64,000 nucleotides of DNA, taken from NCBI GenBank assembly GCA_937883785.1, contig CALGDE010000039.1, forward strand, positions 1-64,000. The letters are read 5' to 3'. Both the position numbers and the translations under genes were made by a program. Below, piece by piece: positions 28,804 through 40,010 of the stretch (positions are counted from its first letter, which is position 1; each line of letters starts with the position of its first letter). The notes beneath the pieces were generated by a model, which ran no database searches, was not told the DNA's origin, and saw nothing but the letters and a program-made list of their open reading frames with translations. Source of the stretch: an uncultured cyanobacterium. Its GTDB lineage: Bacteria; Cyanobacteriota; Cyanobacteriia; CACIAM-69d.

Positions 28804-31800
28804 CTACTTGTGGGTAAGCCGTAAAACGCCATCCCACTGTTCCCCAAGTCCCTCTCGCTCGGCTTCTTCTAATCGGTCCAAGTAATACAGCGCACAACTA
28901 TCGCCAGGATTAATATCTAACACTTCAGAAAAGCCCTGGCGAGAGTCTGCTAGCCGACCTTCGCAGTAGTCCCTAACCGCTTTTTCAAACGCGTCGCAGG
29001 TGGCAACCTTTAAATCAAATTCACTGGGACCATCCCCATCAAACACCTCATATAGCCCAGTTACATTTCGCTTTCCTTTAACGATCGCTGAGCCCAAAAA
29101 CCGTAGATGAAACGGATGATCAGAGCCTAACCAATTAACGGTTTCTTCCGATACCAAGAGGGACGCGCCATAAACTTTCGTTAGTCCTTCTAAACGAGCT
29201 GCTAAGTTGACGTTGTCGGATAGGGCATCCCCCTGCATTCGGTCTTTTTCGCCAATAATTCCCATCATAATTGGACCGCAGTGGATAGCGATTCCAATGC
29301 GGATAATGGCGTCTCCCCTGGAGAAATTACCGTTGCCATTTTCGCCGTTACTGACACCACTATTTAATTCGTCATGGGTGGCGTTGCTTTGCTCGAGAAC
29401 AGCTTTGCGACGGCGCTCTCTGACGGCTTTTAATTTGGCGATCGCCGCACTGATGGCATCCTGGGGACCATTGGGAAATACAGTCATCACGCCGTCTCCT
29501 AAGTACTTCATAATAATGCCGCCGTGACCGCGCAAAATCGGACTAACCAGCTGTAAATAGCGATTGATAAACTCAAACCCTTCCCGCGATGTCATGCCCT
29601 CCGCCATGCTGGTAAAACCGCGAATATCGCTAAACATAATCGCCATTTCTCGGTCCACATGATCCCCTAGCTTGACGTCCAAAATACTTTCCTTGTCTAG
29701 GAATTCTAAATAGGCGTGGGGGACAAATCTTTGGTAAGCCGAACTGATTTTTGAAAGATGAATATGGGTGTTAATTCGCATTAACAACTCATCTTTAATA
29801 AAGGGCTTTGTTAAATAATCATTGGCTCCACATTTAAAGCCCATAATTAAGTCGTCTAGACGATCCTTTGCGGTCAGCATAATTACCGGAAGCTGAGCCG
29901 CCAGGCGAGTTTCTCGGATTTTTTTACAGACGTCATAGCCCGATAGGTTAGGCATCATAATATCCAGCAACACCAGGTCAATAGGCTGGGCCAAAGTGTT
30001 TAAGACCTTTAGGGCTTCTTGACCACTGGCGGCAACGGTCACTGAATACCCCTCAAAGCTCAGGAAATTCTCCAGTACCCGCAAGTTCACCGGCTCGTCG
30101 TCGACGATTAAAATCTTGCCCTGGTGGCGACCATTGCTGGTGGGTTCAGAAGCCAGAGCGGGCAAGGATGTGGCGGGAGCAGGGGGGGCGATCGCCGATC
30201 CGTGGCGACGACGACGGAGCAGGCGCTTACTATCTAGCCCCGCAGCGGGACTGTCGGCAATGGGCAACGTGACGGTAAATGTGGACCCTTGTCCCAATGT
30301 GGAGCTTACGGCGATACTGCCCGAGTGCAAATCCACCAGTTGTTTAGTTACCGCCAGCCCCAGACCAGCACCGCCGTGACGACGGGAAGTGGACCCGTCT
30401 CCCTGCTCAAAGGACTCAAAGATTCGCTCGAGGTTTTTCTGGGCAATGCCCGGTCCCGTGTCCGACACGGCAATGGCGATCGCCTTCGTTGCCCCCCTGC
30501 CCTGGGTTACCGCTTTGGCCTTGACCTGCACCTTCCCCTTTTCCGTAAATTTAATGGCGTTGCCGATCAAGTTGTACAAAATTTGCTGAATTCGATCCTC
30601 GTCCCCCAATAGTGGAGGCAGCCCCATCGGACTATCATGAGTAACCGTAATCAGGCGATCGCCCACAAGCACCTGGGTCACCGCCAACACCGCATCAATA
30701 CAGCCTTTAACATCCACTGCCTTTAGCTCCAGCTCCAGGCGACCGTTTTTAAGCTGGGCAAAATCCAAAATATCGTCCACCAAATTGGCTAGCCGCCGCC
30801 CGCTGTCAGCAATTAGGCGCAGATTCTCCTCCTGGGGCTTATGCATCGGTCCGGCGGTGCCTTGGATCAGAGCCTCCGATAGTCCCACAATGCCGTGAAT
30901 GGGGGTCCGCAGCTCATGGGAAGTATTAGCCAGAAACTCGTCTTTAAGCTCATCCAGGCGTTTTAACTCCTGATTTTTCTCCTCCAGGGTCACCGCATAT
31001 TTACGCAAATCATCGCGCGATCGCTCCAAAGCATTCCACAGGCTAATAAACATGGCGGAGCCCGTGGACATGTTCCACACCAGCAACGGCGACACCGCCG
31101 GAATGGACCAGCCGCTATTAAAACTCAAGTAGGACACCGCCAAAATACTGGCGCTTCCCAGCAACATCACCCCGATTCCTTTGGAAATGCGCTGACGGTA
31201 GGTGCCATAAATAGCGCCGCCAATGCCCCACGCCAAAATCCACGCCAGCACCGCGCTTTTTACCGGAGCCTGCTGCATCACCCGTCCATCCAAGGCAGCG
31301 CTCACAATTTGGCTGGCGATATTGGCATGAATTACCACCCCGGGCATCAGGGGACGGCTGGGCAACAGGGCGCTGTTGTAGGGGGTTTGAAACTCGTCAT
31401 TGGTGCTGGGGGCAATGGGACCAATCAACACAATGCGATCGCGGAACAATCCCTCCGGCACCCGTCCAGCCACCACATCCGCCAAGGAAATATGCAAAAA
31501 GCTGTCCAAGGTGCCGCGATAGTTAAGAAAAATTTGATAGCCGCCACTATCCGGCATGTAATCCCCCACCTTGGGAGTAACGGGGCGAAACAGAGCCTGC
31601 CCGATTTTCAGGACCTGCTCCTTCGGGTCTATCACCCCCAATTCCAGCCCCTGATCTTCCAAATATTTCAACGCCAGCCGGGAGGCCAACCCCTCGCGAT
31701 ATACCCCATCGCTGCGAAAGATGCCCACAATACCGCGGCGCACTCGACCATCTAAATCCTGTACCGAATCGTTGGAGGTCACCCGGTCCACCCGGTCCAA

Positions 31801-32217
31801 GGTGGGCGGTGGCGCCACTGGCTGTCCCCCTACTTTTTCGATGCCGTAAAGGTTTTCCGTCTTCTCAAATAGCTCAACAAGTTCCGCATTTCCCGGCTCC
31901 ACGGGCAAGTCACGGTATAGATCCAATCCAATGGAGTGGGGATCTTGGGCGTCAATGGCGCGAATAACTTTGGTCAGAAACTCATCTGACGCCGGCCACT
32001 GACCAGCTAGCTGAATATCAGACTCGTCAATGGTGACAATAACAATGCGATCATCCTTAGGCTCGGGGATCCGCCACCGCACATAGGTATCCCTAAGGGC
32101 CCATTCCAAAAAGGCAAAGCCTCCGGAAAGGCTGCCAAGGATACCGACGGAGGACACGAGGGCTCCAATGATTAACCCACGTTGCCAAGGTTGAATCCGC
32201 TTAAAAGGTAGGGTCAT
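28804..32217 (-). CDS. CHASE2 histidine kinase-receiver-adenylate cyclase
   Basis: About 1137 residues from ATG 32217 (a TTG at 32271 would add 18). Order: N-terminal membrane helix, extracellular CHASE2 domain (DDRIVIVTIDESDI, SIGLDLYRDLP), three membrane helices (about 330-400), a coiled linker and HisKA (NTSHELRTPIHGIVG). HATPase follows (LIGNAIKFTEKG, DTGPGIAQ, GAGLGLAVT), then a receiver with the phospho-Asp in LVLLDIMMPNLSGYD and LTKPF. Last is a class III cyclase. Its metal-binding Asp residues lie in MFSDIRGFTSM and YLGDGVMTVF, and the Lys in IMKYLGD suggests ATP as substrate (inference). It combines phosphotransfer with a second-messenger output in one chain. It is the last of four co-directional genes from 40010. 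Confidence 0.93.
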   Translation of the reverse strand: MTLPFKRIQPWQRGLIIGALVSSVGILGSLSGGFAFLEWALRDTYVRWRIPEPKDDRIVIVTIDESDIQLAGQWPASDEFLTKVIRAIDAQDPHSIGLDLYRDLPVEPGNAELVELFEKTENLYGIEKVGGQPVAPPPTLDRVDRVTSNDSVQDLDGRVRRGIVGIFRSDGVYREGLASRLALKYLEDQGLELGVIDPKEQVLKIGQALFRPVTPKVGDYMPDSGGYQIFLNYRGTLDSFLHISLADVVAGRVPEGLFRDRIVLIGPIAPSTNDEFQTPYNSALLPSRPLMPGVVIHANIASQIVSAALDGRVMQQAPVKSAVLAWILAWGIGGAIYGTYRQRISKGIGVMLLGSASILAVSYLSFNSGWSIPAVSPLLVWNMSTGSAMFISLWNALERSRDDLRKYAVTLEEKNQELKRLDELKDEFLANTSHELRTPIHGIVGLSEALIQGTAGPMHKPQEENLRLIADSGRRLANLVDDILDFAQLKNGRLELELKAVDVKGCIDAVLAVTQVLVGDRLITVTHDSPMGLPPLLGDEDRIQQILYNLIGNAIKFTEKGKVQVKAKAVTQGRGATKAIAIAVSDTGPGIAQKNLERIFESFEQGDGSTSRRHGGAGLGLAVTKQLVDLHSGSIAVSSTLGQGSTFTVTLPIADSPAAGLDSKRLLRRRRHGSAIAPPAPATSLPALASEPTSNGRHQGKILIVDDEPVNLRVLENFLSFEGYSVTVAASGQEALKVLNTLAQPIDLVLLDIMMPNLSGYDVCKKIRETRLAAQLPVIMLTAKDRLDDLIMGFKCGANDYLTKPFIKDELLMRINTHIHLSKISSAYQRFVPHAYLEFLDKESILDVKLGDHVDREMAIMFSDIRGFTSMAEGMTSREGFEFINRYLQLVSPILRGHGGIIMKYLGDGVMTVFPNGPQDAISAAIAKLKAVRERRRKAVLEQSNATHDELNSGVSNGENGNGNFSRGDAIIRIGIAIHCGPIMMGIIGEKDRMQGDALSDNVNLAARLEGLTKVYGASLLVSEETVNWLGSDHPFHLRFLGSAIVKGKRNVTGLYEVFDGDGPSEFDLKVATCDAFEKAVRDYCEGRLADSRQGFSEVLDINPGDSCALYYLDRLEEAEREGLGEQWDGVLRLTHK

Positions 32218-32591
32218 GGGCAGTGTCTCAAAGCGCTCGCAGGACAATGCTGCAGGTAGCGCCCAGCTCAATCATGTAATGGCAATTGCACACCCTAAGT
32301 ATGGTCTACTTTTGATCCCCTTTCCGCCCTGGTTTTTAACAATCTGATGCCTGAAAAGCCTGAGTCATCTTGGGTGCGCTGGGAGCTTTCCAAAAGAATC
32401 AGCTTCAAAAGCTGAAGTAGAAATCACTGGCGTGGCAATTGACGTTAGAAAATCAACGTTAAAGCCAGAGGGACTGAGTCTTCGAAAAGTCCCAGCCCCT
32501 GTAATTTGTTCCTAGTCTGAACCGTTTTGCCAAGGCAAGTGTCGCCTGCTTTAATTTTGCGATGTTGGCGTTGCAGGGCTTTTGGCTGAGT
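32218..32591. other. Gap between DUF928 gene and CHASE2 gene
   Basis: 374 bp, both neighbours on the minus strand. I see no strong terminator hairpin or repeat. It is long enough to hold an independent promoter for the CHASE2 gene, so the four-gene run from 40010 to 28804 need not be one operon. Confidence 0.4.
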
Positions 32592-33659
32592 TTAGTTTTC
32601 AACCATGGCATCAACGGGCAGCAAGGGCGCCGACGCCACATCTCCCAAGCCCACTTGCACCAGCAAATCAGACCATTCTTCCGCAAGTTCAGCGTTATCG
32701 GGATTCAGTCGTCGAGCGTTGGCTAGCACCTGGAGGGTGTCGGTCCAAAGCCCTGCTTCGGCCAAGTCAACGGCTTGCTCTAGGGCGATCGCCGGAGTCA
32801 GCCCCTCCAAGGTGGCGTCATCTAAACTAGCCACGCCAATGGCAGCGTTATCCCCTACACGAGATATTAGAGTACGCAGCACAGGGGTGTCGGGAGCTAA
32901 CTGCTCTTCCGGTGCCAGGAACACCACTTGCCACAGATAATCCCGCCCTACTTCTAAATCGGGGGCGTCGCTAGGCAGAGACACTTCTACAATGCCGTTG
33001 TCCTCGGTCAAATTAACCTGGGTTTGGTGGTGATAGTCACCGTCCAAATCCTGGATGCTAACGAAGGCGCGATCAGCGCCCGTCTCCGGCAGGTACAGCA
33101 TTAACGATGGGCGGCTGTTGCGGGTTTGGGTGTAGCTACCCGGGGGCAACAACGCCAAGGCGTCATCGCTTACAGACTCGCGACTGCCGGTGCCCACGGT
33201 GGTGGTAGGTGCCGGAGCATTGGGGGGAGCAAATCGGACACGACCACGGCTGCCAGAACCCACGGTGGTGGTAGGCGCTGGGGCATTGGGGGGAGCAAAT
33301 CGAACGCGACCACGACTGCCAGAACCCACGGTGGTGCGGGGGCGAGCGTTATCTGGCGGAATAAAGCGGACGCGGCTGGATTTCGCTGCCACCGATAGGG
33401 ATTCTGATAGATCCCAGCTCAATGATTGAGTGTTGCCTGTTTCAACGCTGCTTTTCTCGACGCTGCTTTTTTCGACGTTGCCTTTTCCAACAGCAGGGGC
33501 TTCGGGAGCGGCGATCGCCTGAGGTGCCATTAACCCAACGCTCAAAACAGAGACGAACAAAGCGCTAAGGGAAAACTGCGATCGCCGGGAAGCCTTAACT
33601 AACCGCCCACGGGATACCGTAATTGGAGTGCGTTGGGGGAGTGTAAATAAACGAATCAT
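32592..33659 (-). CDS. DUF928 exported protein with internal repeats
   Basis: 355 residues. A signal peptide lies at about 30-51 (FSLSALFVSVLSVGLMAPQAIA-A). VEKSS-type pentads at 62-75 are encoded by a 15-bp tandem repeat, 33441-33485. A 22-residue repeat (RVRFAPPNAPAPTTTVGSGS-type) occurs nearly three times at 96-160. A DUF928 domain (about 165-300) includes ALLPPGSYTQTRNSRPSLMLY and DLEVGRDYLWQVVF. DUF928 is a cyanobacterial family of unknown function, usually encoded next to CHAT, CHASE2 or haemagglutinin-like genes, as here. Probably periplasmic or surface-exposed. Confidence 0.88.
   Translation of the reverse strand: MIRLFTLPQRTPITVSRGRLVKASRRSQFSLSALFVSVLSVGLMAPQAIAAPEAPAVGKGNVEKSSVEKSSVETGNTQSLSWDLSESLSVAAKSSRVRFIPPDNARPRTTVGSGSRGRVRFAPPNAPAPTTTVGSGSRGRVRFAPPNAPAPTTTVGTGSRESVSDDALALLPPGSYTQTRNSRPSLMLYLPETGADRAFVSIQDLDGDYHHQTQVNLTEDNGIVEVSLPSDAPDLEVGRDYLWQVVFLAPEEQLAPDTPVLRTLISRVGDNAAIGVASLDDATLEGLTPAIALEQAVDLAEAGLWTDTLQVLANARRLNPDNAELAEEWSDLLVQVGLGDVASAPLLPVDAMVEN
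33180..33374 (-). repeat. In-frame 66-bp tandem repeat in the DUF928 gene
   Basis: The coding region for residues 96-160 holds nearly three copies of a 66-bp unit. The two inner copies are almost identical at the nucleotide level (GGCATTGGGGGGAGCAAATC in both), indicating recent duplication or gene conversion. Confidence 0.85.
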
Positions 33660-34184
33660 GGTCGAGAAGGTGCGGTTGGAAGGAAACGAAGAACAGATAG
33701 TGCCTGCATAGAATACTTCGTAAAGATGCAGGATGCAGCAAAATTACTGACACATCGAAAGATAGAACTTAAACCTTACCCTTGTTTTAATTTTAACAGT
33801 TGCGAGGCTTATCGCCACTTAAGTAATGGGGTGGAACGGTTGAAAATCTGTGGGATCTTGAGTTTTTAAGGATAATTAATCCGCACTTAATATGAGTCTT
33901 ACTTAAGAATCCCCCTGGGGCTTGGATTTCAGCGATTAGGAATCAATAAACCCTCGCAAACATCAAGAAATATGAGGGAATGACGCCTGGCTGGGTTGGC
34001 ATAACAAACGTTACATTTTTATTGCGCAGCGGATTTCGTTTTTTATTTTGACTTTTATGTTCAGCTTTTTGGCTTGGCTTTTTGACTTGGCTTTTTACTC
34101 AGCTTCTGTGCTGTTTTTTGATCGCGTATTCTTGACTGCGTAAGTGCGTGTGTAGATGCCTTGAGTTCTCCTGTTCCCTTTGTA
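33660..34184. other. Gap between CHAT gene and DUF928 gene
   Basis: 525 bp between co-directional minus-strand genes. A diverged 13-bp tandem repeat (GCTTTTTGGCTTG, GCTTTTTGACTTG) occurs around 34067-34105. No gene or RNA is recognised. It probably contains the promoter of the DUF928 gene. Confidence 0.4.
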
Positions 34185-36899
34185 CTATTGCCAGTTGCCA
34201 ATAAGCACAAAAGCAGACCAGTAATAAGGGTGGCTGTATTGTTCGCTATTCAGAAGTTTTATCTGGGCTTGGCGCAGGGCTTCTGCTTTTCCAGATCCGG
34301 GGCGATCGCTGCCCACCGCGAGTTTTTTATAAAACTCTGTCATCAGGGCGGCGGTGGATTCGTCGTTGACGGACCACAAACTGGCTACGGTGCTGCGGGC
34401 TCCGGAGCGTAACGCAAAGCCCGCTAATCCCAACGTGGCCCGGTCGTCCCCCTTAGCAGTTTGACAGGCACTCATCACCAGCAGGTCAATGGGGGATAGC
34501 ACTCCCACCTGACGCTTACGAAATAGCTTATCGAAATCCTGAATATACAGGCGATCGCTCCAGGCCAATAAATAGGTTTCCTCGGGGGATGAGCTAAATT
34601 GCCCGTGGGTTGCCAGGTGAACAATGGGGAAGGATTTATTGTCTAGCTGGTTGAGAAACTCCCCGGAAGTGAAAGATTGATCCATCAAAATACGAGAGTC
34701 AAAATCCTGGGCAATGTTATCCACTTCCTGGGTTACTCCCGGCAAAGCATTAAATCCCTGGCGAGCTTCGCTTAACCCCGCAATGAAAATTTTGGACTTG
34801 GCGCGGCGGCGGGCGGGGGGCAATAGCTGTAGACCAGGGCTAATGGCAAATTGGTAGCGCTCCACCAGGTAGCGATCGCCGTCATAGATGGCACCAACGG
34901 GTACTTTCCGCAGAGGACCGTCGGGCACCATTACCAAGGTTTCAATGCCGGCGGCGTCTAGGTCCGACTGAATGGGGGTAATCAACCAGTCGTAAATGGT
35001 TTTGCCCAGGTTCTGCTGCCGCTCTACCAAATAGGCCGGATTGAGGGACGAATAAAATTCCTCCAGGACCGCGTTGATTTGGTCCAGGTTGGCGTTCACT
35101 CGGAAGTGGCGCAGGGGGCGATCGCCAATGGCCACAATCATATCCAGGCTGTCATCCACAAAAATGGGGTACAGCACCGCCGCTTTCGGGTCAAGGGATT
35201 CAATGGATTCAGGGCGGGCCGTTAAGCACGAGTCCCCAAAGAAATTATCCAGCTCTGCCACCTGTAAAGCTTCGATAACATTGCGCGCCTGGGCAATTTC
35301 CTCAGTGGTGGCTCCCGGCTGCAGCAGCAGGCTAATTAGCTGGCGATAGGCGGGTTCCACGCTTTCTCGAAAGTCAAACTGCACGTCGGTGCCGATGGCC
35401 ACCAAATCCTGGCGCAAGTATTGAAAAGACTGAATCGCCTGACCGTAGGCGCCGATGGCACCGTCTTGATCCCCTTGGGCACCTCGCACAGTACCAATTT
35501 GCAGGGCGGCACGGGCAGCAATATCGTCGGCGCCCAAGGACTGGGCGATCGCCAAGGATCGTTCCGCCAGCTTTTGGGATCCGGTCAATTTATTGTGGTC
35601 CTGGTACAGCCGGCTCAGGTGATAGAGCCCAAAGGCTTCAGCACGGGGGCTACCGAGAGTTTGGGCTAGCTGCACTGTTTCTCCCAAAAATAGGGATAGA
35701 TCCTTCGCCTCGTCCCGCTGAGTTTGCTTTGTTTGCGTCCTGGACAAGCGCAGCCAGCTATCGGCCAAATTGATGCGCCCGTAAAGGCTGTCGTGGGTCA
35801 GGGGCAGCGCTTCCAGCTCCGCCGCCAGGGGATCAATTTTTTTCGCCGCCGTGGGAGATTCCACCTCAATCAGCGTTTGTAGCTCATTGAGTTGACCGCG
35901 CAGGGCGATCGCCGGGGTGGCGGCAATATCAATGGCTTCGCCGTAGTATTCCAAAGCAAAATCGTTCGCCCGTTCCCGCCGCGCCAAATGTCCCAAATCA
36001 ATCCAGGCGGCGGCAGTATCGTCCGGGGAATTAATGATTTCAGCCACATCACGACTCTTTTGAAGAGCGAAATAAGCCTGGGCTGGATCCCCCACAATTT
36101 GAAACGCCTCTCCTAATCCCCGCAGGGCGATCGCCTTGATTTGGCTGGCAGGCTGATCCTTCAAGGACAAAATGGCATCTTCCAACAGTTCCTGCCCTTT
36201 ATGATGATGCCCCAACGCCTGAAGGGCCCGCGCCCGAGCCACCACACTACCAATGGCTCCGGTGGTATCGGCGATAGTTTGATAGGCTCCTTCCGCCAGC
36301 TGCCAAGTGTCCGCCGCCTGCTCCAACTGCCCCATGCCGTACAGCAAATGCCCGCGATGATTGAGAGCCTGGGCTTTAAGCCCCATCAAAGGCTTAAAAG
36401 GCTTAGTTTCATTGCCAGCGGTCATCGCCGAATCCAGTCGAGTCAGCACCATTTGGTTCAGCTCTTCAGCGTCGGTCAATCGCCCCAAATTTTGCCAGGT
36501 CAACGTTAGGTAATTCGCCGCCTGAATTTCCCCAATGAAATTATCGGCAGTGCTATAACGCTGTTGAGCCGCCTCCCACAGTTGAGCCGCCTGGGCTAGG
36601 TAACCCAGCTCGTAGCGCTCCTGTCCCTGGCGTAGCAATAGGTCGGGAGAACTGTTGGCCGCGATCGCCACGGACGGCAGGTTGTCAGCGGGAGTATCTG
36701 CTGCTTGGCTTAGTTCCCCAGCGCCCAGAACGATAGCGGCGATCGCCCCCACCGCCACCAACACGCCATAGATCGAAGCTTTGACTGTTTTCCGCTTGTT
36801 TTTGAACAACCGTTTCCAGCGATTCAAACGACTTAGAAATCGCTTTAAGGTAGATCGCTTTAAGGAGGCAATAAGACGGTAGAAGGCGCGGGAAGTCAT
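34185..36899 (-). CDS. TPR-CHAT domain protein with intact His/Cys dyad
   Basis: 904 residues: a basic cytoplasmic N-terminus, one membrane helix (about 42-64), a long tetratricopeptide array (about 85-520) and a C-terminal CHAT protease domain of the caspase-like superfamily (about 600-904). The catalytic dyad is intact: His765 in LATHGQF and Cys812 in MSACQTAKG. CHAT proteases cleave partner proteins; bacterial relatives act in immunity and cell death (family knowledge). The target here is unknown. Its neighbours, a haemagglutinin-like exoprotein (123 bp upstream) and a DUF928 protein, form a recurrent cyanobacterial neighbourhood, so the exoprotein is a candidate partner (inference). Confidence 0.93.
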   Translation of the reverse strand: MTSRAFYRLIASLKRSTLKRFLSRLNRWKRLFKNKRKTVKASIYGVLVAVGAIAAIVLGAGELSQAADTPADNLPSVAIAANSSPDLLLRQGQERYELGYLAQAAQLWEAAQQRYSTADNFIGEIQAANYLTLTWQNLGRLTDAEELNQMVLTRLDSAMTAGNETKPFKPLMGLKAQALNHRGHLLYGMGQLEQAADTWQLAEGAYQTIADTTGAIGSVVARARALQALGHHHKGQELLEDAILSLKDQPASQIKAIALRGLGEAFQIVGDPAQAYFALQKSRDVAEIINSPDDTAAAWIDLGHLARRERANDFALEYYGEAIDIAATPAIALRGQLNELQTLIEVESPTAAKKIDPLAAELEALPLTHDSLYGRINLADSWLRLSRTQTKQTQRDEAKDLSLFLGETVQLAQTLGSPRAEAFGLYHLSRLYQDHNKLTGSQKLAERSLAIAQSLGADDIAARAALQIGTVRGAQGDQDGAIGAYGQAIQSFQYLRQDLVAIGTDVQFDFRESVEPAYRQLISLLLQPGATTEEIAQARNVIEALQVAELDNFFGDSCLTARPESIESLDPKAAVLYPIFVDDSLDMIVAIGDRPLRHFRVNANLDQINAVLEEFYSSLNPAYLVERQQNLGKTIYDWLITPIQSDLDAAGIETLVMVPDGPLRKVPVGAIYDGDRYLVERYQFAISPGLQLLPPARRRAKSKIFIAGLSEARQGFNALPGVTQEVDNIAQDFDSRILMDQSFTSGEFLNQLDNKSFPIVHLATHGQFSSSPEETYLLAWSDRLYIQDFDKLFRKRQVGVLSPIDLLVMSACQTAKGDDRATLGLAGFALRSGARSTVASLWSVNDESTAALMTEFYKKLAVGSDRPGSGKAEALRQAQIKLLNSEQYSHPYYWSAFVLIGNWQ

Positions 36900-37022
36900 G
36901 GAGCAAAGGAAGAAGGTGAGGAACGGGGTGGCTAGGGGGGATTATTTCGCGGTTTTCTTGACGACTACGTTTAGCCGCTAACTTTGCAGCTAGATCTTTT
37001 TGTAGCTAATTGCAGCTAAATC

Positions 37023-40010
37023 CTAAAGCGAGGGCGTGGCGCTAAGTTGCTGACAGTTGGGCGTGGCCAGGGCAACCTCCTGAGCATTGTCCAGAAACAC
37101 ATCGCCATTATGGTTGCGATGCCATCCCGAGGCTTCCACTAGCCTGGCTTCTTTTTCCGTCGCCCTGGGTGAGTTGCTGAATACGGGGGCATTAGCGGGT
37201 CCATGGCTAAGAACACTCTCGTTAGCGCCACCTCGTTGACGAGGGGCCACCCGCGCTGTGGCTAGGGTACCCGTATGGTCCCGCCAATCTACCCAACCGG
37301 AGCGATCGCGCAACGCCACCGTAGGATCCGTCGGCAGCCCGCCTCGCCCCACGGCGACAAATTCACTGCCCAAAGCGGCACAGTGGTTAGTAATTTGCTG
37401 GGTGGGGTCCACCACGGTCATGGGTAGTTCCACTAGTCCTGCATCCGTATCTAGTTCAGGGGGCGTGATGCTCACCTGTCCCTGGAAGTCTGCCCCCAGT
37501 TCCGACGTGGCGGTGATATCGCTGGTGGGGGTGAGGCGATCGCGGAAAGTCAACCCAAACAATCCCTGGGTCACGATGGATACTTGACCACCGGCTCCAT
37601 TGACGGCATTAGCGGTGACATCGCTGTTCCCAAAGGCAGCCACCAGGTCAGCGTCCAGGAAAATATTGCCCCCGGTGGAGGTGCCGCTGGCGTTGGTGGT
37701 GATTTGGCTGCCGTCCCGTAGTTCCAGCAAGTTGGTTTGGATATTGACGTTGCCGCCGCTGCCGGTGGAGGGATCCGCCGTAATGCGCGAACCGTTTTCC
37801 AGCACTACCCGGTTCGCTCGCACCACCAAATCCCCCGCCTGGGACTGACCCAAGGAGTTATCTAGCGCCTCATTACTGACCGCTAATTCGCTACCGTCGC
37901 TGAGGCGCAGGGTGTCCACATTGATGGTCACATCTCCCGCGTTGCCCAGCCCCTCCCGCAGGGTACTTAAATCGCTAATGCCGACGATAAAGGCGGACCC
38001 TTCCAACACGCTGTTCACGCTGGCGTCGGAGCGAATGCCGCTGGGGAACGGCACGCCGCCCCGCTGGGTGCCGGGCGATCGCCCCACCAGCTCTAGGGAA
38101 TCGGCGTTAATGGTCACTTCCCCCGCATTGCCCGAATTAAGGGTGGACGAAAAAATTACGCCGCCGTCCGCCAGCACCACTCGCCCTGCATTAACCTCCA
38201 CATTGCCCGCCGGACCGGAACCTTGGGTGCGGGTATTCAAATTGGTTAGCTCGGTGCGGCTGCCTCGCAACTCCAGCAGCTCCGGCGCTTCCACCACCAC
38301 CGCGCCGCCCGCGCCCTCTCCAAACACCACCGCCACCGCCAGCCCCCCATCCAACAGGCGCACCACCGGAGCCCGCATTAGCACCAAGCCGCCGGTGCCG
38401 GTGGAATCAGGGTAGGAATTACTGGACAGTCCGCTGGCAAAGGAACCATCGGAGGTGGCACCGATAAATTCAATAGATTCCGTCGCCAAAATACGCAAAT
38501 CGCCGCCGTCGCCTCCCGCAAAGGTGGACGCAAAAAGACCGCCGCCGTTGATGCCGATAATGCGCCGGGCCCGCGCCGTAATATCCCCCGCCCGCCCGGA
38601 GCCAAAGGTGTCCGCAAACACCTCCGCTCCGTCCAACAGCAGGGTGTCAGCAATATTTAAATCCACCAGCCCCCCATTGCCGCCGCCAGAAGGCGCCACG
38701 GAGAGAAAGGCGCTAGTGGCCATGGTGAGATTGTTGGCGGTGACGGAAATATCGCCGGAGTCGCCGGTGTTAAAGCCCATGGCAAAAAAGCCGCTGCCCA
38801 ACAAGGACGGGTTTTGCACCGACATGGCAAATAGCTCGGTGAGGGCGTCTTGAAGGGGACGGGCTCCGGTGATGAAAATCTCGTTGCCGGTGATATTAAT
38901 ACTGCCGGCGTTGCCGCTGCTAAAGCTAACGCTGGACACAAAGGAACCGTCCACCAAGTTGATATTGGCTACGTCCACGTCTACGCCACGCCCATTTTGA
39001 GATCCCAGGGTGTCCGCCAGGATGATGGAGCGATCGCCCATAAAATACGAATCGCCAAAAATCTGCACCGCCCCGCCGCCGGGACCACTTACATCAATTA
39101 CGGTCCCCCGCTCCAACCGAATGGCACCTTCCCCCGTTGCACCGGTCACCGTGCCCACGCGCCAGCCCAGATCCGTGGGCACCAGGGAAACGTTGGCGTC
39201 TGCCCCCACCGCCGCCAAAACGCTTTGGCCGCCGGGGGTGGTTAGGTAAGCTCCGTCTAACTCGAGCGATCGCCCCACCAGCGCCAGGGTATGTCCTGGA
39301 TTAACGGACAATCCCCCTTCCGGCGTCGGCACGATATTTCGACTCACCGCCGCCCCCGCCGCCATTTCCGGCACCGGCAATGGGTCACTGCCCACCGCGC
39401 GAATGCCCCCGGATCGGCTCCCCCACTGCAGTCCCATGGGCACCGTCGCCGTTAACAACGGCGCGGACGCTTCACCGCCCATGCCCCAAATGGTGCCATC
39501 GGCAAAGGTAATTCGCTCCGCCGTGGTGGCAAAGAAAGAACCGCCAATATCTAGGCGAGCATTGGGACCAAAGAGCACCCCATTGGGATTGAGCAAAAAT
39601 AAGTCGGCGCTGCCCCCCGCCCGCAGGGTGCCGTCAATGTTGGAGGGTAAATCACCCGTTACGCGGGAAAAAATTCGGTCTACGCCGCCGTGTTGAAACA
39701 CCGCCGTTTGTCCCGTAGGCACCGAAAATTGTTCAAAGCTGTGGAATAAATTGCCGCCATTTTCCACACCGCCGGTAATATCCACCAAGTCCCCCTGGGA
39801 CTGCACCACGCTGGGGGTTGGCAGGGTACGATCCGGCACAATTTGCCCTTGGGCTGGCAGCCAAAACCCAGCGCCTGCTCCGAAGAGAACGGCTCCACAA
39901 CCAATTTGCCCAAGTCGTCCTAGGCTGGAGAATTTAAATAGGCTGGAAAATTTGAAATCGAGAAATGCTGATGCGATCACCCGAGGAGGCTGAAAGGGGA
40001 GTGCGCACAT
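37023..40010 (-). CDS. Filamentous haemagglutinin-type exoprotein (TPS domain)
   Basis: 995 residues. After a long signal region (about 55 residues, cleavage near AQG-Q) comes a two-partner-secretion domain at about 57-200. It has the usual marks: IVPDRTLPT, NLFHSFEQFSVPTG and the NPNG motif at 141-144. The rest is a beta-helix of degenerate repeats (GSAG.I.I, GNAGEVTINADSLEL, GSGGNVNI). It ends in a short acidic and Cys-containing tail (NCQQLSATPSL). Such proteins are exported through a TpsB (FhaC/ShlB) outer-membrane pore; no TpsB gene is present in this window. Likely a surface adhesin or matrix protein. Confidence 0.92.
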   Translation of the reverse strand: MCALPFQPPRVIASAFLDFKFSSLFKFSSLGRLGQIGCGAVLFGAGAGFWLPAQGQIVPDRTLPTPSVVQSQGDLVDITGGVENGGNLFHSFEQFSVPTGQTAVFQHGGVDRIFSRVTGDLPSNIDGTLRAGGSADLFLLNPNGVLFGPNARLDIGGSFFATTAERITFADGTIWGMGGEASAPLLTATVPMGLQWGSRSGGIRAVGSDPLPVPEMAAGAAVSRNIVPTPEGGLSVNPGHTLALVGRSLELDGAYLTTPGGQSVLAAVGADANVSLVPTDLGWRVGTVTGATGEGAIRLERGTVIDVSGPGGGAVQIFGDSYFMGDRSIILADTLGSQNGRGVDVDVANINLVDGSFVSSVSFSSGNAGSINITGNEIFITGARPLQDALTELFAMSVQNPSLLGSGFFAMGFNTGDSGDISVTANNLTMATSAFLSVAPSGGGNGGLVDLNIADTLLLDGAEVFADTFGSGRAGDITARARRIIGINGGGLFASTFAGGDGGDLRILATESIEFIGATSDGSFASGLSSNSYPDSTGTGGLVLMRAPVVRLLDGGLAVAVVFGEGAGGAVVVEAPELLELRGSRTELTNLNTRTQGSGPAGNVEVNAGRVVLADGGVIFSSTLNSGNAGEVTINADSLELVGRSPGTQRGGVPFPSGIRSDASVNSVLEGSAFIVGISDLSTLREGLGNAGDVTINVDTLRLSDGSELAVSNEALDNSLGQSQAGDLVVRANRVVLENGSRITADPSTGSGGNVNIQTNLLELRDGSQITTNASGTSTGGNIFLDADLVAAFGNSDVTANAVNGAGGQVSIVTQGLFGLTFRDRLTPTSDITATSELGADFQGQVSITPPELDTDAGLVELPMTVVDPTQQITNHCAALGSEFVAVGRGGLPTDPTVALRDRSGWVDWRDHTGTLATARVAPRQRGGANESVLSHGPANAPVFSNSPRATEKEARLVEASGWHRNHNGDVFLDNAQEVALATPNCQQLSATPSL

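Follow-up and report, generated by a model that had tools for sequence, protein, structure and literature searches.

Four large genes lie in one direction on the minus strand of the window, that is, the whole 64,000-nucleotide stretch of cyanobacterial DNA that was analysed. In order of transcription, they encode a TpsA-like two-partner secretion (TPS) exoprotein of 995 residues (37023..40010, minus strand; Pfam TPS 5.5e-51, aa 56-316; NCBIfam adhes_NPXG), a TPR-CHAT protease of 904 residues (34185..36899, minus strand; Pfam CHAT 8e-64 and TPRs), a DUF928 protein of 355 residues predicted to be exported (32592..33659, minus strand; Pfam DUF928 5.2e-34) and a sensor combining CHASE2, HisKA, HATPase_c, receiver and class III cyclase domains (28804..32271, minus strand; Pfam CHASE2 1.7e-54). 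All four reading frames are open at these coordinates and, together with the Pfam matches, bear out the four same-direction genes that a first-pass annotation had proposed. With intergenic gaps of 123, 525 and 320 nt, the sequence alone does not establish a single operon. Scanning the region for promoters and terminators gave no signal above shuffled sequences. The other neighbours identified by Pfam are a prephenate dehydrogenase gene, MiaE and a holin-like gene.

The exoprotein begins with a hydrophobic N-terminus, which by reading ends in ...AQGQ and is predicted to be an export signal. It is followed by the TPS secretion domain (aa 55-306; 39093..39848, minus strand), delimited with our own HMM and with Pfam, by beta-helix repeats and by a C-terminal tail. 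AlphaFold2 prediction of the C-terminal 372 residues gave a beta-helix of regular strands, with pLDDT mostly >90, at about residues 100-230 of the fragment. The tail that follows is predicted to be mostly unstructured or of low confidence, with one hairpin, which is weak evidence for an accessible linker. The tail module, defined by an HMM, spans aa 844-995 (37026..37481, minus strand) and contains Cys877, a GRGGLP motif at residue 888 (37332..37349, minus strand), EASGW and Cys986. No Pfam model matches this module. Cys877 and Cys986 are the only cysteines of the mature chain, and GRGGLP is the region where recognition or cleavage by CHAT may take place.

In order to describe this tail across the family, we derived the consensus of unfused TPS proteins, C...F..TGRGG(L/I/V)P..P......W.D.......EA.GW..n..G.v.LvA......C. 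According to the tail profile, which was trained on 113 of the ORFs scored, 140 of 150 complete ORFs for unfused TPS proteins carry the tail; both TPS-TpsB fusions have it as well, and none of the 14 TPS-CHAT fusions does. The mature chain has exactly two cysteines in 127 of the 140 tail-bearing exoproteins; both are C-terminal, with a median spacing of 92 residues. Some tail-bearing exoproteins whose genes adjoin a CHAT gene carry degenerate motifs. The GRGG-type tail appears to be previously undescribed, as no description was found in the largely open-access literature. Close to the gene of another tail-bearing exoprotein of the window genome, three adjacent long proteins (L052:1102-9455, contig C48) share near-identical C-termini, FLLEPT..FDQLTL....STQIKFGDELL, possibly a different sorting or anchoring tail.

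The partner gene codes for a PF12770 protein with a hydrophobic export or anchor segment near aa 45-60 according to hydropathy. Its catalytic domain (34194..35012, minus strand) contains His765 and Cys812 at the positions given in the first-pass annotation. The dyad is thus intact, and peptidase activity is predicted. An N-terminal hydrophobic export segment is found in nearly all CHAT proteins of the cassettes described below, and, of the CHAT rows, a single poorly aligned match lacks the His-Cys dyad. A phylogenetic tree of 105 CHAT domains groups those linked to TPS in a single clade (58 rows, SH-aLRT 97), and most other CHATs fall outside it. This clade comprises a branch of CHATs fused to exoproteins (17 rows, SH-aLRT 100) and a branch of CHATs encoded by separate genes (40 rows, SH-aLRT 89), 32 rows of which adjoin a TPS gene. 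The window CHAT belongs to the separate-gene, or trans, branch, for which a diagnostic region (...QLAELDNFF..ACL...) was delimited by alignment at 34968..35537 (minus strand) and used in the search of 60 genomes.

Fusions of the two partners are common in the window genome, where a CHAT domain forms the C-terminus of 8 of the 11 TPS proteins, within the same ORF; all eight lack the tail. These single chains lie on contigs C105 (two), C27, C166, C23, C70 (two) and C16 (loci L053-L059), with the His-Cys pair intact; the C105 pair is in tandem. The remaining three exoproteins, which lack a CHAT domain, are precisely those that carry the three tails of this genome. A different arrangement is seen on plasmid pREC3 of Acaryochloris marina MBIC10699 (L378:5863-11187), where an annotated CDS of 1774 aa contains a TPS domain, a beta-helix, a GRGGLP half-tail, TPRs and CHAT, with a DUF928 gene just upstream. 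By its domain order, this ORF is the equivalent of the first two window genes in one chain. It is followed by genes for a lysine-acyltransferase and a calcium-binding protein. At locus L295, the exported N-terminus of a CHAT protein contains a GRGGVP half-tail.

The TPS tree shows an old split between fused and tail-bearing exoproteins that matches the split of the CHAT tree. As judged from these trees, the two families divided together, which counts as one event. The contrast between 140 tail-bearing proteins and 14 fusions thus represents essentially one old divergence and not many independent events. We also considered that tail and fused CHAT had repeatedly replaced each other, and rejected this idea because a single old split, together with one doubtful fusion at L308, is seen in the TPS tree. 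Since the replacement argument was weakened in this way, we turned to co-occurrence at the level of whole genomes.

The set of 60 genomes of the class was screened both for the tail and for the region that distinguishes separate CHATs, a CHAT being counted from 90 bits upwards, a threshold placed in the visible interval from 92 down to 70 bits. Part of the loci used to train these profiles have tail and CHAT side by side. With them, the tail was found in 29 genomes and the separate CHAT in 30, all 29 being included in the 30. Among the 60 genomes, 29 thus had both, 30 neither and 1 CHAT only. Restricting the count to the 47 TPS-bearing genomes gave 29 with both, 17 with neither, 1 with CHAT only and 0 with the tail only (Fisher 7e-12). 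The sole discordant genome, which has CHAT without a tail, is an assembly in 1230 contigs (G053). In five families where the tail is variable, CHAT varies exactly with it, and a sixth departs only at G053. When the data were shuffled within families, 231 of 100,000 shuffles matched the observed agreement between tail and CHAT. These data suggest that the tail is restricted to genomes with a matching exported CHAT and that this protease may trim or release the exoprotein.

We then asked how far the neighbourhood itself is conserved. The 60 genomes contain at least 661 CHAT and 262 TPS matches. Regions of up to 20 kb around 80 DUF928 genes from 31 genomes were annotated with our own HMMs, and expected counts were derived from genome-wide counts as the gene density of each genome. 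Within 5 kb of the 80 DUF928 genes, we found CHASE2 in 40 cases (expected 1.5), CHAT in 23 (expected 2.9), TPS in 21 (expected 1.3) and TpsB in 13 (expected 0.8); each count exceeds all 200,000 simulations. An independent set of 35 full-length TPS-centred named loci, chosen with a narrow TPS alignment regardless of the other families, gave CHAT in 14 (expected 1.75; P 5e-10), DUF928 in 8 (expected 0.63), CHASE2 in 7 (expected 0.90) and TpsB in 6 (expected 0.51). At least 8 other loci (L220, L280, L282, L293, L298, L306, L316 and L380) have TPS-CHAT-DUF928-CHASE2 in exactly this order and on one strand; among them are that of Nostoc sp. CHAB 5844 (L306), where TpsB precedes the set, and that of plasmid pA of Kovacikia minuta (L380). 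Existing annotation of plasmid ABRG53f of Pseudanabaena sp. ABRG5-3 gives TpsB-CHASE2-TPS-CHAT-DUF928 in one direction. Several copies of the cassette lie on plasmids. The recurrence of these families in cyanobacteria, already claimed in the first-pass annotation, is therefore substantiated: the clusters keep their order in distant families and extend far beyond close relatives, whereas conservation confined to close relatives had been named there as a refuting outcome. In Nostoc sp. C052, where the set otherwise runs TPS, CHAT, DUF928, CHASE2, two further genes, first that of a sigma-70 family factor and then DUF1822, separate DUF928 from CHASE2 (L377:13377-18551). A sigma factor and DUF1822 also directly precede a CHAT gene at L379.

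No TpsB (POTRA_2) gene was found in the window or in the rest of its contig, in line with the absence noted at first pass for the surroundings of the exoprotein gene. A search for an orphan TpsB was proposed at the same time. The window genome contains 11 TPS genes and three POTRA_2 proteins, two of which are ShlB-type TpsB encoded on other contigs and the third an Omp85 according to Pfam. With two TpsB genes for 11 exoprotein genes in this genome, the lack of an adjacent TpsB is ordinary. In the class sample, each of the 47 genomes with a TPS gene has two or more POTRA_2 genes, and many cyanobacterial TpsBs are reported to belong to a Hmw1B-type group (PMC4104836). At two loci (L284:2897-7222 and L296:1-4425), TpsA and TpsB form one ORF (TPS...tail...POTRA_2), a one-chain secretor made from a two-partner system. 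A fusion of a TpsB-like POTRA_2 protein with CHAT is found at L223:567-4970; its CHAT lies outside the TPS-linked clade.

The window DUF928 protein matches PF06051 with 118 bits for a curated cut-off of 26. Its predicted structure is an Ig/FN3-like sandwich with three helices. The Ig/FN3-like matches obtained by fold comparison were all weak, with E values no lower than 1e-3, and no sequence relatives were found in the PDB. Before the DUF928 domain, about three tandem 22-aa copies of RVRFAPPNAPAPTTTVGSGSRG are encoded at 33181..33374 (minus strand; TRF period 66, and alignment). The corresponding motif, F.PP....P.TT.G.GSRG, is present as a single copy in most DUF928 proteins and is also in tandem at L306, L309 and L282. 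The conserved Arg of the DUF928 GG..RG motif was considered as a second CHAT site and rejected, being equally frequent without a nearby CHAT or TPS gene. Whether or not the tail is present, DUF928 is found in 47/47 genomes with a TPS gene, compared with 3/13 of the others (Fisher 4e-9). It thus goes with TPS exoproteins in general, and may be tied to them.

Pfam resolves the window sensor into CHASE2, HisKA, HATPase_c, Response_reg and Guanylate_cyc, in that order. Its start is probably the in-frame ATG at 32217 rather than the TTG at 32271. By reading, the phosphorylatable His451 (SHELRTP) and the receiver Asp (LLDIMMP, 768) are intact, as are both metal motifs of the cyclase (FSDIRGF at 880 and YLGDGVM at 923), and the Lys/Asp pair points to an adenylate-type enzyme. 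However, in the other exact-order cassettes that were tested, the CHASE2 proteins are histidine kinases lacking a cyclase domain, which only the window sensor has. Two variants that depart from this order carry AAA-like or CHAT-like parts at the N-terminus instead. Production of cAMP, put forward in the first-pass annotation as the signalling step, is thus not a general output of the cassette.

These observations lead us to propose that the window genes represent one instance of a unit that is widespread in cyanobacteria and centred on two-partner secretion. A TpsB whose gene lies on another contig of the genome would let the exoprotein pass the outer membrane. The exoprotein would end in a flexible tail of ~100 residues, stapled by the only two cysteines of the chain and held in the periplasm like the anchors of HMW1 and HxuA, thus keeping the exoprotein in the TpsB pore. 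We infer both the disulfide and the periplasmic retention. The exported TPR-CHAT would then cut the tail, most likely at or near GRGGLP, so that the exoprotein is matured or released. In the sister branch, the exoprotein carries a fused CHAT instead of the tail, and this step may take place in cis. DUF928 would be an exported accessory protein, and the CHASE2 kinase would probably sense the envelope or the outside and control the unit. We give the whole model, in which an exported TPR-CHAT acts on the stapled periplasmic tail to mature or release the exoprotein with TpsB supplied in trans, a probability of roughly 0.5. More tentatively, a dedicated CHAT, in trans or fused in cis, could cut the stapled anchor while a CHASE2 envelope sensor times the maturation or release of the adhesin. 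The first-pass annotation had CHAT process a partner, which was too vague; the partner to which the evidence points is the Cys-GRGGLP tail of the exoprotein, and its cleavage would be the processing step. The cut sites of the studied Craspase orthologs are non-conserved (PMC11106740); hence GRGGLP may also be a docking or binding element, or be unrelated to cutting.

Could CHAT instead be a caspase-like effector of cell death, self/non-self recognition or phage response, switched on by the exoprotein acting as a sensor, with no processing involved? CHAT and caspase-like proteins are often effectors, as exemplified by Csx29 (PMC10028731). A phage-resistant strain of Nostoc 7120 is mutated in a filamentous-haemagglutinin-domain protein, and one of two mutations in a resistant strain hits a CHAT gene (PMC10811720). 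Fusion, adjacency and co-occurrence would moreover suit any tight partnership. We nevertheless consider this scenario unlikely, as the CHATs appear to be exported, which better suits an extracytoplasmic substrate than a cytoplasmic death programme, and as their co-dependence is with the C-terminal tail and not with exoproteins in general. The tail might also serve as a TpsB-docking anchor only, CHAT being directed at another protein, e.g. DUF928 or an envelope protein, and clustered through a shared surface programme. The resemblance of the two-cysteine tail to the HMW1/HxuA anchor, for which no need of a dedicated protease is reported in PMC5422565, speaks for this idea, as do the proximity of DUF928 to these genes and its presence in every TPS-bearing genome. 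It is made decidedly unlikely by the near-perfect co-occurrence of tail and separate CHAT across genomes and within families, and by the position of GRGGLP exactly at the junction of the one-chain Acaryochloris fusion; DUF928 and its GG..RG motif also occur without CHAT nearby.

The circuit drawn in the first-pass annotation, in which a cue sensed by CHASE2 raises cAMP to direct CHAT and the surface proteins, agrees with the intact metal sites of the window cyclase. The cyclase-free sensors of the sister cassettes and the two off-order variants make such a circuit very improbable. Finally, surface genes often cluster, and the plasmid copies would be expected if these genes simply co-travelled on plasmids or genomic islands without physical partnership. 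We give little credence to such neutral clustering in view of the fixed order in distant families, the dedicated CHAT clade, the co-occurrence of tail and CHAT, and the several kinds of fusion (TPS-CHAT, TPS-TpsB and TPS-tail-TPR-CHAT).

Bordetella FhaB is processed by proteases unrelated to CHAT. The candidate protease here, in contrast, is a caspase-like CHAT whose gene adjoins or is fused to that of the exoprotein. FhaB resembles our system in that a retained inner C-terminal part affects the mature exoprotein (cited in PMC5422565). The likeness to HMW1 and HxuA, of type Vb, resides in the TPS domain, the beta-helix exoprotein, the presence of TpsB in the genome and the sole C-terminal pair of cysteines. 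In these proteins, a disulfide-bonded C-terminal domain, expected to be periplasmic, locks the exoprotein in TpsB (PMC5422565). The tail described here differs by its ~92 residues between the cysteines, its conserved GRGG[LIV]P element and its association with a dedicated CHAT, DUF928 and CHASE2, partners absent from the accounts given in the available parts of the TPS papers.

Csx29 of Craspase shares TPRs, CHAT and the His-Cys dyad with the window protease. Recognition of the substrate by Csx29 involves a C-terminal domain, and the cut falls within a flexible loop (PMC10028731); by analogy, this is a precedent for substrate recognition at a C-terminal domain by a TPR-CHAT. The window CHAT differs in that it appears to be exported and belongs to the TPS-linked clade; no Cas7-11 gene was found among the neighbours of its gene. 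HetF is also a cyanobacterial protein of the CHAT family PF12770 (PMC8406250 and PMC10811720), but acts in cell division and heterocyst development; our CHAT tree was built without it. Among the largely open-access papers searched, only one dealing with DUF928 was found (PMC5587647). It reports closely arrayed CHASE2 and DUF928 genes in Nostoc punctiforme (NOSP7), with a link to WD40 proteins and in one species, whereas here CHASE2 lies within 5 kb of half of the 80 DUF928 genes, often with TPS and CHAT.

No report joining CHAT proteases to two-partner secretion was found in the largely open-access papers searched. The component families are known, and CHAT-linked two-partner secretion, with its proposed protease step, appears to be a previously undescribed form. 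CHAT proteases and TPS exoproteins are numerous in cyanobacteria. Our model, if true, would provide a whole CHAT clade with a substrate and a compartment, and the undescribed conserved tail with a function. It may also bear on phage adsorption, given the haemagglutinin-domain mutation in the phage-resistant Nostoc 7120 strain (PMC10811720). Compared with the known systems, it would add a protease to an anchor of the HMW1 type.
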